In this document: in pieces, positions 3,852 through 59,637 of the stretch
How positions within the stretch are numbered: position 1 is the first letter of the stretch
How the letters are laid out: every line of letters starts with the position of its first letter
Source of the DNA: Marixanthotalea marina
Lineage (GTDB): Bacteria > Bacteroidota > Bacteroidia > Flavobacteriales > Flavobacteriaceae
Assembly: GCA_018883545.1 (NCBI GenBank)
Contig: JAHLEH010000001.1
Location: 806,001 to 870,000 of the forward strand
DNA: 64,000 nt
Direction of reading: 5' to 3'
The notes under the pieces: generated by a model
The model's input: the letters and a program-made list of their open reading frames with translations, nothing else
What the model was told of the DNA's origin: nothing
Database searches by the model: none
Made by a program: the position numbers and the translations under genes

Positions 3852-3877
3852 TAACCGCTTTCATTGCTATAGCACAT

Positions 3878-3912
3878 AAAAAAAGCACCACTTAAAAGTG
3901 GTGCTTTTTTTA
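3878..3912. terminator. Bidirectional terminator between convergent genes
   Basis: AAAAAAAGCACCACTT pairs with AGTGGTGCTTTTTTT around a three-base loop. The stem has A-runs on one side and T-runs on the other, so it works in both directions. It overlaps the stop codon of the minus-strand gene. Confidence 0.9.
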
Positions 3913-4578
3913 TGGAGTTGTTTTCTTTTTTCGATATAACTTTACAGTATAAATTATTATTCCAGTTATTATAAGCAATAAGAAAAAATAAGTAGAAATT
4001 ACATAGCCAATTCTATATTTTGGAGGTTTTCCTAAATATTGGCTAATACTATTGTTATTATTTATTTTAATGGAATTAAAGATAGAATCTTTTACCTGCG
4101 AATTGTAATCGGTTTCACTTGCATAAAAGAAAGTATAAAGGTTTTTGTTAAGTAAATAAAACTCGGTTTCATAGGCCAACGAGTCTTTATTGTTTGTAAA
4201 CTTTAGATTGTAACCTTGAAAACCTTCCTTTTCAACAAGGGCTTTAGATTTAAATGTATAAGGTATTCTGGTGCGCATTCTGGCAATTACACGGTCGTAT
4301 TCATCAAGTAAACTTGCGTAATTGTAGGGTAGTCTAGAAAGGCTTTCTTTTTGGTCTTCCCTTTCAAACAGTACTTTTTGGGCAATGAAATTATAGGTGC
4401 TGGTTTTAAATCGAATTTGGTGTATCTGTACGCCATCAACCAGCGTATCTGCTTCAAAGTAGTTTTTAGGTACTTCTAAAGAAACAATAGAATCGAATTT
4501 AAAGGTGGTTTTATTGCTGTTTTGTGAAACCAGAATTCCTCCAAAACACATAAAAAATAAAAAGAAAAGTTTTTTCAT
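3910..4578 (-). CDS. Uncharacterised exported protein with a C-terminal membrane segment
   Basis: A 222-residue protein I do not recognise. It has an N-terminal signal peptide (about residues 1-18, ending LVSQ), a mixed alpha/beta periplasmic region of about 160 residues, and one C-terminal transmembrane helix near residues 189-212 followed by a basic tail (KLYRKKK). The topology suggests a bitopic inner-membrane protein with a periplasmic domain. No enzyme motif is visible and it has no obvious operon partner. Confidence 0.6.
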   Translation of the reverse strand: MKKLFFLFFMCFGGILVSQNSNKTTFKFDSIVSLEVPKNYFEADTLVDGVQIHQIRFKTSTYNFIAQKVLFEREDQKESLSRLPYNYASLLDEYDRVIARMRTRIPYTFKSKALVEKEGFQGYNLKFTNNKDSLAYETEFYLLNKNLYTFFYASETDYNSQVKDSIFNSIKINNNNSISQYLGKPPKYRIGYVISTYFFLLLIITGIIIYTVKLYRKKKTTP

Positions 4579-8821: not shown

Positions 8822-8857
8822 AAAGCCTAGTAAAATCAAAATTACTAGGCTTTTTTG
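8822..8857. terminator. Shared terminator between the KDG operon and tmRNA
   Basis: AAAGCCTAGTAA pairs with TTACTAGGCTTT, with T-runs on the plus side and a T-rich tract on the minus side. It ends the plus-strand operon and probably also the minus-strand tmRNA, whose mature 3' end lies one base away. Confidence 0.85.
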
Positions 8858-9250
8858 TGGAGCCGGAGAGAATCGAACTCTCGTCCAAACAAGTAACCAA
8901 AGGGCTTTCTACACGTTTATTCTTTTCTTTTTTTTTCGATTGCAAGCTGGTTAAAGACAACCTACTTACAACTTAGCTTTTTAAATTTCAATAGCACATC
9001 AAAGCACTATGCTATCTATGTTAACTTTTACGATGCCTCATAAAAGAACGCCGTTAACCAAGGCTTTCAAGAGACATTTAGCTTTCCCGCCTTGCGGGAC
9101 TAGGCTTATCTTACTATAATTCAGAATTAAGCAGCTAAAGCGTAGTTATTCTCGCCGTTTAAAGTTTGGTCTAGCCTTTTACGTGTTTCAAAACCATCAC
9201 ACGACGTGCTTACCGTTCAATTAATCTCGCTGTCAAAACCAGTCGACCCC
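8858..9250 (-). ncRNA. ssrA: Transfer-messenger RNA (tmRNA)
   Basis: The 5' end GGGGTCG and the 3' end CGGCTCC form a seven-pair acceptor stem. The T-arm is GAGAG-TTCGATT-CTCTC, followed by discriminator A, and the CCA end is not encoded. A tag reading frame (9156-9127) codes GENNYALAA and stops with TAA. A strong hairpin (CCCGC...GCGGG, near 9087-9100) follows the tag, as in the pseudoknot region. The length of about 393 nt fits Bacteroidota tmRNAs. With SmpB it rescues ribosomes stalled on broken mRNAs and marks the products for proteolysis. Confidence 0.95.
9127..9156 (-). other. tmRNA proteolysis-tag reading frame
   Basis: The codons GGC to GCT, then TAA, encode GENNYALAA. The terminal ALAA is the usual ClpXP recognition end. 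The resume codon is likely the GGC or the triplet just before it. Confidence 0.88.
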
Positions 9251-9269
9251 AATTGAATTGTAAGATTGT

Positions 9270-9330
9270 CACTTCGAATGATTTTTGTCAGACTGAGCGC
9301 AGTCGAAGTCAAAAATCGTATCGAGAAGTG
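9270..9330. repeat. Nested inverted repeat, dispersed element family A
   Basis: The outer arms CACTTC...GATTTTTG and CAAAAATC...GAAGTG enclose an inner palindrome, GACTGAGCGCAGTC. The core CTGAGCGCAGTCGAAG recurs at 30261-30285 and, with one change, at 45683-45707. It sits 20 bases upstream of the tmRNA 5' end. Confidence 0.8.
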
Positions 9331-9475
9331 GGCGTTCCCACGCCTTTGGCGTGGTCGGGTTTTACGCTTTATCTTTTTTATGTTTCGATACATCCCAATA
9401 AAATTGGGACACTCAAACTGACATAAAAAAGGATGCCGCTTCAATCCCTAACGCGGACTGCAAAGTTATAAAAAA
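9331..9475 (+). other. Structured non-coding element upstream of tmRNA
   Basis: This gene-free stretch (part of the 327-base gap 9251-9577) holds a compact structure: GGGCGTTC, a CCACGCC-TTT-GGCGTGG hairpin, then TCGGGTTTTACGC. An insert follows, bounded by TTTTTTATG and CATAAAAAA and holding a CCCAAT...ATTGGG hairpin. The end is GATGCCGCTTCAATCCC and TAACGCGG. The blocks GGGCGTTC, GTCGGG and CTTCAATCCCTAACGC resemble a repeated extragenic element I associate with Bacteroidota genomes. Whether it is transcribed is unknown. The strand given is the one on which these blocks read. Confidence 0.5.
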
Positions 9476-54572: not shown

Positions 54573-56615
54573 TTATTTGCTTTCAATCAACCCGGCCCGT
54601 CTTAGTAATGCCTCAGGCTGAGGTTCTTTTCCGCGGAAACGTTTGTACAATGCCATTGGGTCTTCGGTACCTCCTTGTGAAAGGACATTGTCTTTAAATT
54701 TTGTGGCCACTTCTTTGCTGAAAATACCAGACTCCTTAAAATATTCAAAAGCGTCGGCGTCTAAAACTTCAGCCCACTTATAACTATAATAACCAGACGA
54801 GTATCCTCCTTGAAATATATGAGCAAATGCAGTACTCATGCAATTTTCAGAAACATCGGGATAAAGTTGTGTGCCTTCAAAAGCTTTCGTTTCAAAGTCT
54901 TTAACTGATGTTATGGTTTTTGGTGAATCACCAGCGTGCCAACTCATATCCAACATGCCAAAACTCAATTGTCTTAAGGTTTGCATGCCTTCTAAAAACG
55001 TGGCCGATTCTTTTATTTTTTCAACGTATTCCATAGGAATGAGTTCGCCGGTTTCGTAATGGGTGGCAAACAATTCTAAAGCCTCTTTTTCATAGCACCA
55101 ATTTTCCATAACCTGACTTGGTAATTCTACAAAATCCCAATATACGTTGGTCCCCGATAAGCTAGGATACGTGGTGTTTGCCAACATACCATGCAGTGCA
55201 TGGCCAAACTCATGGAATAGGGTGGTGACTTCATTAAAAGTTAATAAAGAAGGCTTGCTTTTTGTGGGTTTGGTAAAGTTGCACACAATAGAAATATGAG
55301 GTCTTTCCATGTGTCCATTCTTAATATATTGCGGTTTGTAGGAAGTCATCCAAGCACCGTTACGTTTGCCTGGTCTTGGGAAGAAATCGGCATAGAAGAT
55401 AGCAATAAATTCACCATTTCCGTTTGTTACTTTATAGTTTAAAACATCATTGTGATACTTATCGATATTGTGTATTTCTTCAAATTGTAAATCAAAAAGT
55501 TTGTTGGCTACTAAAAAAGCACCGTTTATTACATTTTCAAGCTTAAAATAGGGTTTTAGCTTTTCATCATCAAGATTGAATAATTTTTGTTTCAATTTTT
55601 CCGAATAATAAGCGCCATCCCATTTTTCCAAATGCTTGATGCCATCTATTTCGTTAGCAAAACTTTCCAAATGTTTAAATTCTCGTTCGGCGGCAGGTTT
55701 TGCTTTTTCCAGAAGTTCGTTTAAAAAGCTTTTTACTTTTTCAGGTGTTTTGGCCATGCGTTCTTCCAAAACAAATTGGGCATGCGTTTTATAGCCCAAT
55801 AAATTGGCACGTTGGTGTCTTAGCCTTACAATTTCCAAAACAATATTTTGGTTGTCTAAATTGTCGTTTTGAAATCCTTTTTTGCCAGCGGCAATCGTTA
55901 ATTTTTTTCTTAATTCGCGGTTGTCAGCATAAGTTACAAAAGGAATGTAACTGGGGTAATCTAAAGTGAAAACCCATCCTTCTTTGTCTTTAGATTCGGC
56001 CAATTGTTTTGCGGCTTCTATGGTGCCTTCAGGAAGTCCAGATAAATCGGCTTCATCAGTAATTAGCATTTCAAACCGATTGGTTTCTGCCAATACATTT
56101 TCACCAAACTTTAATTTTAATTGACTTAATTTTTTATCAATCTCACGGAGTTTTTCTTTTTTGTCAGCAGGCAAATTGGCACCGTTTCTGGAAAAATTCT
56201 TGTATTTTTTATCAAGAAGCATTTGCTGTTCTTTGGTAAGGTTCAGCGCATTTTTTTTTAAATAAACAGTTTTTACACGTGCGAACAAGTCTTCATTTAA
56301 AGTGATGTCGTTGCTAAATTCTGATAATAGGGGCGATACTTCTTGCGCTATTTTTTGGATAGTGTCGTTGGTTTCAGCTGAATTTAGATTGAAAAAAATA
56401 CTTGAAATTCTATCCAGTTGTTCGCCTGCAAATTCTAGGGTCTCAATCGTATTTTCAAAAGTTGGTTTTTCGGTGTTTTTTGCAATACTGTCTATCTCTT
56501 TTTTTGCGATTTCAATAGATTTTTGAAATGTCGGAAGAAAATCGTCATTATGAATTTTTGAAAATGGAGCTGTATTATACGGAGTTTGGTAGGTTTTTAA
56601 TAAAATATTTTTCAT
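54573..56615 (-). CDS. M3-family metallopeptidase (Dcp/oligopeptidase A-like)
   Basis: A 680-residue M3 zinc peptidase with HEFGHALHG (His468, Glu469, His472) and the downstream Glu region FVELPSQVMENW. It has no signal peptide, so it probably degrades oligopeptides in the cytosol, although Dcp homologues in Bacteroidota are often exported. The length and motif positions are normal for Dcp. It is monocistronic, and a 14-bp palindrome lies just upstream. Confidence 0.93.
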   Translation of the reverse strand: MKNILLKTYQTPYNTAPFSKIHNDDFLPTFQKSIEIAKKEIDSIAKNTEKPTFENTIETLEFAGEQLDRISSIFFNLNSAETNDTIQKIAQEVSPLLSEFSNDITLNEDLFARVKTVYLKKNALNLTKEQQMLLDKKYKNFSRNGANLPADKKEKLREIDKKLSQLKLKFGENVLAETNRFEMLITDEADLSGLPEGTIEAAKQLAESKDKEGWVFTLDYPSYIPFVTYADNRELRKKLTIAAGKKGFQNDNLDNQNIVLEIVRLRHQRANLLGYKTHAQFVLEERMAKTPEKVKSFLNELLEKAKPAAEREFKHLESFANEIDGIKHLEKWDGAYYSEKLKQKLFNLDDEKLKPYFKLENVINGAFLVANKLFDLQFEEIHNIDKYHNDVLNYKVTNGNGEFIAIFYADFFPRPGKRNGAWMTSYKPQYIKNGHMERPHISIVCNFTKPTKSKPSLLTFNEVTTLFHEFGHALHGMLANTTYPSLSGTNVYWDFVELPSQVMENWCYEKEALELFATHYETGELIPMEYVEKIKESATFLEGMQTLRQLSFGMLDMSWHAGDSPKTITSVKDFETKAFEGTQLYPDVSENCMSTAFAHIFQGGYSSGYYSYKWAEVLDADAFEYFKESGIFSKEVATKFKDNVLSQGGTEDPMALYKRFRGKEPQPEALLRRAGLIESK

Positions 56616-56639
56616 TTTAATATAAAATGTGTTAAAAAT

Positions 56640-56671
56640 AAAAATTTATTATGCATACATAATAAATTTTT
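56640..56671. promoter_or_regulatory. Perfect 14-bp inverted repeat, operator-like
   Basis: AAAAATTTATTATG and its exact reverse complement are separated by CATA. It lies between the M3 peptidase start and the -7 box of the plus-strand RNA candidate, covering that promoter's -33 area. It could be an operator for an unidentified repressor. An AT-only hairpin of this kind would be a weak terminator. Confidence 0.7.
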
Positions 56672-56673
56672 TA

Positions 56674-56681
56674 TACTTTTG
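56674..56681 (+). promoter_or_regulatory. -7 box for the RNA candidate
   Basis: TACTTTTG matches TAnnTTTG. No coding sequence follows on this strand before a strong terminator. Confidence 0.55.
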
Positions 56682-56685
56682 CATC

Positions 56686-56766
56686 AAATTAGTTTTAGAG
56701 AGTGACTAACTCAAGTAATTAGTTAATAGCTGGCCTCGGATTTTTAAATCCGAGGTTTTTTATTTT
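56686..56766 (+). ncRNA. Candidate small RNA antisense to the purE 3' end
   Basis: About 80 bases between a consensus -7 box and a strong intrinsic terminator, with no ORF on this strand. The 5' part can fold through ACTAA/TTAGT. The 3' end is the terminator stem CCTCGGATTT/AAATCCGAGG with a T-tail. The last seven bases lie over the purE stop, so a small antisense overlap exists. Existence and length of the RNA are inferred from sequence only. Known Flavobacteria RNA motifs such as Flavo-1 should be compared. Confidence 0.5.
56734..56766 (+). terminator. Intrinsic terminator on the plus strand
   Basis: A perfect 10-bp GC-containing stem (CCTCGGATTT/AAATCCGAGG) followed by TTTTTTATTTT. On the minus strand the stem is not followed by T, so it does not look like a purE terminator. 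Confidence 0.85.
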
Positions 56767-57242
56767 AGGCTTTCAGCAGATTTAATAACGACCGCTTTCA
56801 GTTCTTCTTTATAGTCAACCATTTTGTTTAAAACATCAGGGTTTGATGATCCAATAATTTGAGCAGCTAAAATACCTGCATTTTTGGCGCCATTTAATGC
56901 AACTGTGGCTACAGGAACACCGCCTGGCATTTGCAGGATTGATAATACGGAATCCCAGCCGTCAATGGAATTACTACTTTTTACTGGAACACCAATTACT
57001 GGAAGTGGCGATAAAGAAGCTATCATACCTGGCAAATGAGCTGCACCTCCTGCACCAGCAATAATAACTGAAAATCCTCTGGTATGTGCATTTTTACCGT
57101 AATCAAACAATTTTTCTGGGGTTCTATGTGCAGAAACAATGTCAACTTCAACTTCAATACCAAAATTTTTTAAGATGTCTACTGCATCTTGCATAACAGG
57201 AAGATCGCTTTTGCTTCCCATAATAACGCCTACTTTTTCCAT
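56760..57242 (-). CDS. purE: N5-carboxyaminoimidazole ribonucleotide mutase
   Basis: A 160-residue class I PurE. GSKSDLPVM at the N terminus, SAHRTPEK with the catalytic His, and AGAGGAAHLPGM are intact. It converts N5-CAIR to CAIR in purine synthesis. It follows purK by two bases in a purKE operon, the partner that makes its substrate. Confidence 0.96.
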   Translation of the reverse strand: MEKVGVIMGSKSDLPVMQDAVDILKNFGIEVEVDIVSAHRTPEKLFDYGKNAHTRGFSVIIAGAGGAAHLPGMIASLSPLPVIGVPVKSSNSIDGWDSVLSILQMPGGVPVATVALNGAKNAGILAAQIIGSSNPDVLNKMVDYKEELKAVVIKSAESLK

Positions 57243-58527: not shown

Positions 58528-59637
58528 GTGTTGAAGCTTCATAATAAAGAGTTCAAACCATTTATTTCTACCAAAGAAATTGAAACAGTTATTCAAGAAA
58601 TGGTTAATGAAATATCTCAGGATTTGGGGGATGAAGTGCCCGTTTTTGTGGGCATTTTAAACGGCTCTTTTATGTTTACGAGCGATTTTGTAAAAAAGTA
58701 CCCGAAGCCTTGTGAAGTCACTTTTATTAAGTTAGCATCTTATGAAGGAGTCAAGTCTACTGAAGACATTCAGCGTTTAATTGGACTCACCCAAGATTTA
58801 ACCGGTCGCAGTGTCATCATTTTGGAAGATATTATCGATACCGGAAATACCTTGGCCGAAGTGCACCGTATTTTTAAAAATGAAAATGTAAAACAACTAA
58901 AAATAGCCACCTTATTTTACAAACCAGATGCCTATAAAAAGGATTTTAAAATTCATTATGTAGGGATAAAAATTCCAAATAAATTTATTGTAGGGTATGG
59001 TTTGGATTATGATGGCTTGGGAAGAAACTTACCAGAAATATATCAAATAAAAGAAACACAATTCATGACAAATTTAGTATTATTTGGCCCTCCGGGTGCA
59101 GGAAAAGGAACACAGGCAGAATTTTTAAAGGAAAAATATAACCTAGTACACATCTCTACAGGCGATGTTTTTAGGTTTAACATTAAAAATGAAACCGCCT
59201 TGGGCATGTTGGCTAAATCGTATATAGATAAAGGCGAATTGGTTCCAGACCAAGTAACCATTGATATGTTAGAGGCAGAAGTTGAGAAAAATTCTTCAGC
59301 AAATGGCTTTATTTTTGACGGATTTCCTCGTACCAATGCACAAGCCGAAGCCTTGGATAAATTAATGGAAAGCAAGGATTCTTCAATCAATGCCATGATT
59401 GCCTTAGAAGTTGAAGATGAAATTTTAGTGAAACGTTTGGTAGAACGTGGCAAAACCAGTGGTAGGGCCGATGATGCCGATGAGGCTATCATTAGAAATA
59501 GAATTACTGAGTACTACAAAAAAACAGCCGTTTTAAAAGATTACTATTCTGCCCAAAACAAATATTATGGCGTTGATGGCGTTGGCAGTATAGAAGAGAT
59601 TACCAAACGATTAAGCGCTGTTATAGATAAGCTTTAA
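58528..59637 (+). CDS. Fused hypoxanthine phosphoribosyltransferase and adenylate kinase
   Basis: One uninterrupted 369-residue frame joins two enzymes. Residues 1-175 are a purine phosphoribosyltransferase with the PRPP motif VIILEDIIDTGNT. Residues 180-369 are a complete adenylate kinase: FGPPGAGKGTQ P-loop, FDGFPRT, and a short LID form. The fusion links purine salvage (hypoxanthine or guanine to IMP or GMP) with AMP/ADP/ATP balance. I recall similar fusions in other Flavobacteriaceae. An internal ATG at 59065 could also start a free kinase. GTG at 58528 or TTG at 58531 are both possible starts. Confidence 0.88.
   Translation: MLKLHNKEFKPFISTKEIETVIQEMVNEISQDLGDEVPVFVGILNGSFMFTSDFVKKYPKPCEVTFIKLASYEGVKSTEDIQRLIGLTQDLTGRSVIILEDIIDTGNTLAEVHRIFKNENVKQLKIATLFYKPDAYKKDFKIHYVGIKIPNKFIVGYGLDYDGLGRNLPEIYQIKETQFMTNLVLFGPPGAGKGTQAEFLKEKYNLVHISTGDVFRFNIKNETALGMLAKSYIDKGELVPDQVTIDMLEAEVEKNSSANGFIFDGFPRTNAQAEALDKLMESKDSSINAMIALEVEDEILVKRLVERGKTSGRADDADEAIIRNRITEYYKKTAVLKDYYSAQNKYYGVDGVGSIEEITKRLSAVIDKL

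Follow-up and report, generated by a model that had tools for sequence, protein, structure and literature searches.

A conserved candidate small RNA gene beside purE in Flavobacteriaceae, with a predicted MarR-type operator and predicted pairing to mRNA 3′ ends

The unit between the M3 peptidase gene and purE

We analysed a stretch of 64 000 nt from Marixanthotalea marina (here called the window). Its region between an M3 peptidase gene and purE contains the following features.

54573..56615, − strand: M3 family peptidase, divergent neighbour (ORF and Pfam)
56640..56671, no strand assigned: predicted MarR-family palindromic operator AAAAATTTATTATG-CATA-CATAATAAATTTTT, overlapping the −33 promoter region (score 30.0 bits; background maximum 1.03)
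56674..56681, + strand: −7 box TACTTTTG; TAnnTTTG is the consensus of the flavobacterial primary sigma factor (PMC9723704)
56686..56766, + strand: predicted small RNA of ~80 nt (fold and conservation; covariance-model match at 56684-56761, E 6.9e-8)
56700..56712, + strand: conserved hairpin GAGTGACTAACTC (alignment of relatives)
56702..56722, + strand: region complementary to the leuB and ankyrin 3′ UTRs, GTGACTAACTCAAGTAATTAG (duplex computation)
56722..56731, + strand: conserved linker GTTAATAGCT, 5′ of the terminator (core pattern and alignment)
56732..56766, + strand: intrinsic terminator (7 of 10 consensus pairs changed on both sides in relatives)
56760..57242, − strand: purE (AIR carboxylase), convergent neighbour, whose stop meets the terminator (ORF and Pfam)

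The original prediction had placed here a perfect 14-bp inverted repeat, a consensus −7 box and a terminator around some 80 nt without a gene, with a 3′ end overlapping the purE stop, and each of these parts was recovered. The palindrome arms (56640-56653 and 56658-56671, 14 nt each) were 100 % complementary across a 4-nt gap. Perfect repeats of at least 14 pairs with a loop of at most 8 occurred at two places in the window and at none in ten Markov-1 random windows with matched dinucleotide composition; the second inverted repeat (3875-3914) has 19-bp arms and a 2-nt gap. The −7 box followed 2 bases 3′ of the palindrome, its motif TAnnTTTG being frequent in the window (61 occurrences on the + strand, 44 on the − strand). 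The terminator on the + strand consisted of a stem of 11 pairs (56732-56757) and a T-rich tail, and it reached the end of purE at 56760. Terminator-like sites were not enriched around the unit (four seen, 4.1 expected). There was no ORF of at least 50 aa within 56616-56759. The start of the RNA was predicted by taking the −7 box as positions −12 to −5, and its end from the terminator. The fold of 56683-56768 had an energy of −23.3 kcal/mol (z −4.24), and none of 200 shuffled sequences was equally low. What appears to be a promoter and an intrinsic terminator thus flank a short noncoding stretch, the arrangement of a promoter-driven sRNA.

At gathering scores, no Rfam family matched the region, and the best hit of a permissive scan, at 22 bits, stayed below its gathering score of 52. 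The Flavo-1 (RF01705) and 6S models, named by the original prediction for this check, also left the unit below gathering score. Elsewhere in the window, Rfam located a Bacteroid-trp leader (532-655, − strand) and a tmRNA with an adjoining Flavo-1 RNA (8855-9463, − strand; Flavo-1 at 9349-9463). By reading of the letters, a single 369-aa frame at 58528-59637 (+ strand) resembles a fusion of hypoxanthine phosphoribosyltransferase and adenylate kinase.

Among the genes discussed below, MarR, 3-hydroxyacyl-CoA dehydrogenase (3HCDH), ETF, the M3 peptidase, PurE and the ankyrin repeats were named by Pfam, and leuB and fabH scored above their NCBIfam cut-offs. An acyl-CoA dehydrogenase (partial, 491 aa) reached 588.8 bits against the FadE model NF058590, just below the cut-off of 600, and an M48 peptidase was a weak match. 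The names 'hisS', 'usp', 'gpmI' and 'pdhB' come from reading the protein letters.

Conservation of the RNA and of its predicted operator

In a DNA search among 60 relatives, 29 had the unit or its palindrome alone. The core pattern of the RNA matched in 68 of 397 genomes of the family; by core and terminator together we accepted 30 of these as genuine, our own genome included, and read the remainder as chance. Of the accepted loci, 28 adjoined purE, and all of these except L045 adjoined the M3 peptidase gene too; the peptidase gene was also present beside the RNA in our window and in L002. Scanning a collection of named contigs yielded 42 loci, of which 41 were the RNA, in Algibacter, Tamlana, Wocania, Flaviramulus, Hyunsoonleella, Jejuia, Gaetbulibacter and uncultured relatives. 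The remaining one, in Pasteurella, falls at a reading-frame end and was rejected as chance (reading of the letters).

In an alignment of 50 distinct sequences, 7 of the 14 aligned pairs were changed on both sides, all of them within the terminator stem (7 of 10 terminator pairs). The 4-pair hairpin GAGU..ACUC was nearly invariant and, because it hardly varies, says little on pairing. The covariation score was 0.307 compared with 0.163 in shuffles, and none of 500 shuffles scored as high. The original prediction had named conservation in relatives beforehand as its test; of the sequence part of that test, the hairpin, the terminator and the 5′ promoter part were all kept. Sequence and structure of the unit were therefore both conserved, again as in a promoter-driven sRNA. 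The linker GUUAAUAGC was decayed in G133 and G330, close relatives of our genome. A small peptide was considered for the RNA core and set aside: by reading of the aligned letters, stops interrupt several frames and no start codon is shared among relatives.

A covariance model matched in 212 of 397 genomes (E≤0.01), a count that is inflated because three other places in our own genome score below E 0.005; we treated own-genome matches from E 0.003 upward as background from other terminators and left them out of the count. We retrieved 60 further model-match places, of which 54 adjoined purE and/or the M3 peptidase gene. The six non-syntenic ones (L185, L192, L197, L203, L207 and L208) were dropped, and eight more places in the same E range were left out (second matches in G153, G178, G333 and G236, as well as G156, G106, G277 and G028). 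Together with three more covariance-model loci, this gave a set of 87 loci (30+54+3). The M3 peptidase gene adjoined 85 of them and purE the other two. Three of the non-syntenic places (L185, L192 and L207) have a similar layout of hairpin, GTTAATAGC and terminator and might be sibling RNAs. Tandem operator-less relatives of the RNA, with two model matches ~200 bp apart before purE, were seen at L173 (G304), L183 (G091) and L182 (G194).

Allowing up to three mismatches, the palindrome pattern occurred at three places in our own genome: in the promoter of the predicted RNA (56640..56671), before marR and a 3-hydroxyacyl-CoA dehydrogenase gene (L034, three mismatches), and between etfB and a pdhB-like (pyruvate dehydrogenase-like) gene (L033). 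The reversed control pattern had four matches in the same genome, so the marR site counts through its context alone. That context was shared widely: for the best 30 of 79 MarR matches the marR promoter was retrieved, and all 30 had the palindrome directly before TAnnTTTG. From these 30 marR promoters alone we built an operator matrix. It scored 52 of the 87 RNA promoters, our own included (30.0 bits), higher than any of the 289 124 background positions in these loci (maximum 1.03 bits), a match between these RNA promoters and the regulator's own promoter. In some operators both arms were changed jointly (ACTATG..CATAGT, GTTATG..CATAAC). The regulator itself was identified by Pfam (MarR, E 3.9e-12), with the 3-hydroxyacyl-CoA dehydrogenase gene next to it. 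The operator begins 35-46 bases 5′ of the start of the covariance-model match; as this would place it across the −33 region, repression is what one would naturally expect. We conclude that the palindrome is, as a predicted site, the operator of a MarR-type regulator that heads fatty-acid-degradation genes.

The operator was absent from the other 35 of the 87 RNA promoters. Because MarR was nevertheless found, with one match each, in 79 of 80 genomes searched (drawn from the 87), the RNA probably has a role or history apart from the operator. Joint loss of marR and operator was rejected, MarR being still present in these 79 genomes. Presence of the operator differed within genera: one had it in G006 and lacked it in G262 and G414, and another had it in G191 and lacked it in G367. 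On a quick tree of the peptidase (85 rows), its distribution took five changes compared with 26.9 for shuffled labels, at least three of the changes being forced by well-supported branches. One group of 44 rows (SH-aLRT 93), which includes our genome, had the operator throughout. Taken together, conservation and the match to the marR operator support the suggestion of the original prediction that the unit is a free sRNA and that the palindrome serves as its operator. Comparison among relatives gives good support to a promoter-driven sRNA under likely repression by the beta-oxidation MarR.

Complementarity to the 3′ ends of mRNAs

We scanned 30 genomes for the complement of the conserved hairpin and obtained 78 places, 27 of which were the RNA itself; the 51 others compare with 14 for the reversed control pattern. 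The follow-up covered 38 of these 51. One group lay in the 3′ UTR of the fad operon, where the pairing sequence stands in the sense of the sRNA just 5′ of the terminator, after the acyl-CoA dehydrogenase gene and ~5.5-6 kb behind marR. Another followed a gene for a small, secreted-looking ankyrin-repeat protein (Pfam Ank), the 3′ UTR of which holds the antisense TTATTTGAGTTAGTCACTC; this element accompanies the ankyrin gene also in genomes with a different convergent neighbour. A conserved motif resembling TGTAACA..CGTCT, which we take to be an ECF-sigma-like promoter, precedes the ankyrin gene at L340, L341, L342, L345 and L348.

With the ankyrin 3′ UTR, our own sRNA formed a predicted duplex of −24.3 kcal/mol (0 of 100 shuffles as low), and the sRNA of G330 one of −34.1 kcal/mol with 21 perfect pairs. 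Among 32 genomes, the duplex reached z≤−4.6 in 12, all with the operator, and ranged from −3.9 to +1.1 in the other 20, 7 of which have the operator. Strong pairing was seen in every one of the 11 genomes that combine the exact hairpin GAGUGACUAACUC with a known ankyrin 3′ UTR. Eight of the 12 strong pairers (G330, G144, G333, G019, G084, G357, G036 and G095) had entered the set via the exact complement behind the ankyrin gene, a match that G287 had as well. Our own genome, G017 and G198 were picked without knowledge of the complement, and their sRNAs paired with the ankyrin 3′ UTR in three of three cases.

With the leuB 3′ UTR, our own sRNA paired over 21 contiguous bases, including two G-U pairs (−30.3 kcal/mol, a value reached by none of 1000 shuffles). 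The sRNA of G330 formed 20 contiguous pairs (−27.9 kcal/mol; 0 of 1000 shuffles). Here the element is an exact copy 2 bases past the leuB stop, and another exact copy lies ~90 bases behind fabH. Our own sRNA thus has extended complementarity beyond that of shuffled sequences to two 3′ UTRs, those of leuB and of the ankyrin gene. Hfq (PF17209) was found in none of six genomes, with the control positive in 5 of 14; any pairing would therefore have to work without Hfq. Action of the sRNA through base-pairing with 3′ UTRs is our best guess from these computations, a tentative one that we consider less likely than not.

The fadE and ankyrin 3′ UTRs can also pair with each other; in 16 of 30 genomes at most 1 of 100 shuffles was as low, and 14 genomes, including G330 and G144, were without such pairing. 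In our genome the two 3′ UTRs have a C-to-T change in common and are complementary over 15 nt. As covariation this is weak, because elsewhere (e.g. in G333, G084, G343 and G148) the change occurs in fadE alone and leaves a G-U pair.

The element GTGACTAACTCAAAT turns up, in either orientation, close to the 3′ ends of a number of genes, and some of its matches fall inside reading frames. It stands in the sense of the sRNA behind the fad operon and the hisS-like and usp-like genes, and in antisense behind the ankyrin gene and leuB. In two species it takes the identical position behind fabH (L428/L431) and at leuB (L430/L429). Further sites near 3′ ends, in either orientation, are L407, L416, L421, L325 (hisS-like), L411 and L413 (usp-like). 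At up to two mismatches, element counts were slightly above control in our genome (11 vs 6) and in G330 (14 vs 11).

This distribution bears on a different explanation, in which GTGACTAACTCAAATAATT is a dispersed 3′-end element (a DNA site, or an RNA hairpin for stability or processing) that the sRNA holds by chance, while the RNA acts otherwise, e.g. through its linker GUUAAUAGC. The two orientations at 3′ ends and the excess of non-self places over the reversed control both speak for it. So does the finding that the element, or a variant of it, outlives a changed sRNA hairpin in the ankyrin 3′ UTR of eight genomes (G006, G074, G148, G155, G232, G262, G343 and G414), in which pairing is weaker or absent and six of which have the operator. 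On the other hand, the pairing of our own sRNA with leuB runs over 21 contiguous bases, beyond the self-complementary stem, and the fadE and ankyrin 3′ UTRs of our genome share a change within their complementary 15 nt. Exact copies are also few, two in our genome and four in G330, the RNA itself included. The 12 strong ankyrin pairers, moreover, all have the operator, although seven more operator genomes fall short of strong pairing and 8 of the 12 were found via the complement. We regard the dispersed element as a serious contender that is nevertheless doubtful.

The linker was searched for targets with AGCTATTAACAA in 20 genomes, giving 86 places, of which 19 were the RNA itself. The follow-up covered 60 of the 67 non-self places, with seven of G196 left out. 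Fifteen of the 60 were near ORF starts (reading of the letters), and three matches fell in the first codons of lipoprotein-like genes. The largest group, from six genomes, was the conserved C-terminus of an upstream reading frame (reading of the letters). At L257, L264, L268 and L283, AGCTATTAACAA stands in a 5′ UTR immediately 3′ of TAnnTTTG, before genes that read as epimerase-like, secreted and nucleotidyltransferase-like.

A proposed MarR-controlled RNA, its alternatives and its parallels

Could the palindrome instead serve mainly the divergent M3 peptidase gene, with the + strand RNA as a by-product? It lies 25 bp from the peptidase start codon, and the peptidase gene accompanies the RNA at 85 of 87 loci. 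The + strand layout of palindrome and TAnnTTTG, however, is that of the marR promoters, and by reading of the letters the − strand of our window has no TAnnTTTG between palindrome and peptidase start. Moreover, 34 loci have peptidase and RNA without the palindrome. We therefore consider control of the peptidase improbable. Action on purKE had been raised by the original prediction; in the form of cis action on purE/purK, by antisense or termination control through the 3′-3′ overlap, it is left without support except for the conserved place next to purE, where the terminator overlaps the purE stop. It is very improbable, as the overlap amounts to a few bases in our genome, purE ends 193-496 bases from the RNA start in twelve loci (L168, L170, L171, L173, L181, L182, L183, L184, L190, L193, L194 and L205), and the operator belongs to fatty-acid rather than purine genes.

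A MarR-controlled small RNA is thus the best reading of these sequence comparisons. We give a probability of roughly 0.7 to a conserved sRNA gene with a promoter under the beta-oxidation MarR operator and an RNA predicted to pair with mRNA 3′ ends. The promoters of marR and of the RNA have the same layout, the palindrome followed by TAnnTTTG. MarR would bind the palindrome (approximately −46 to −15) and repress the RNA, and acyl-CoA or a related ligand may release it. Given the shared operator, the RNA is likely repressed and released together with the fatty-acid beta-oxidation operon. Upon release, the ~80-nt RNA would be made, and its conserved hairpin may pair with the 3′ ends of other mRNAs and alter their stability or 3′-end processing. 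The 3′ UTR of the fad operon, with the same pairing sequence in the sense of the sRNA, could act on the same partners.

In its fullest form, the proposal is an Hfq-less MarR circuit in which a 20-nt element, carried by both the sRNA and the 3′ UTR of the beta-oxidation operon, hits the antisense elements in the leuB and ankyrin 3′ UTRs. We think this form unlikely in its entirety. If it were true, fat breakdown would rewrite other messages from their tails, among them that of an ankyrin gene presumably of ECF-sigma type.

GadY of Escherichia coli, an sRNA with an mRNA 3′ end as its pairing partner, overlaps its target in cis, whereas the complementary 3′ UTRs of the purE-side RNA sit elsewhere in the genome. 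Flavo-1 (RF01705) is likewise a small RNA of Flavobacteria, but its model does not match the purE-side unit. According to PMC9438474, RNase E releases FarS of Vibrio cholerae from the fabB mRNA, and FarS acts together with Hfq and represses fadE under FadR. It is the nearest functional parallel on that description, as an sRNA tied to the main fatty-acid transcription factor and forming a loop with beta-oxidation genes (PMC9438474). In contrast to FarS, processed from the fabB 3′ end with Hfq, the RNA described here has its own predicted promoter and terminator beside purE as well as a predicted MarR-type operator; six genomes searched yielded no Hfq, and the leuB and ankyrin 3′ UTRs are its candidate partners.

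PMC9723704 reports 85 new and four known RNAs of Flavobacterium psychrophilum, named Rfp1-89, and a rise of fatty-acid beta-oxidation genes in response to fish mucus and plasma. Among these RNAs, Rfp18 is conserved across the genus; two protease mRNAs drop in level when it is deleted, and its third stem-loop has predicted pairing with mRNAs for proteases and an adhesin (PMC9723704). Compared by description rather than by position or sequence, it resembles our RNA as an independent structured flavobacterial sRNA kept beyond one species; the main text of PMC9723704 mentions neither marR nor purE. One of the Rfp RNAs may be the Flavobacterium counterpart of the purE-side RNA. Among the papers that a literature search listed, none described the purE-side unit.

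In Bacteroidota, to our knowledge, a switch is known for few small RNAs. The RNA family described here offers a candidate regulator together with an exact operator and a short list of candidate partners, and sister species have naturally lost the operator or the pairing element. The chain from inducer through regulator and RNA to target is therefore open to direct tests in laboratory strains.
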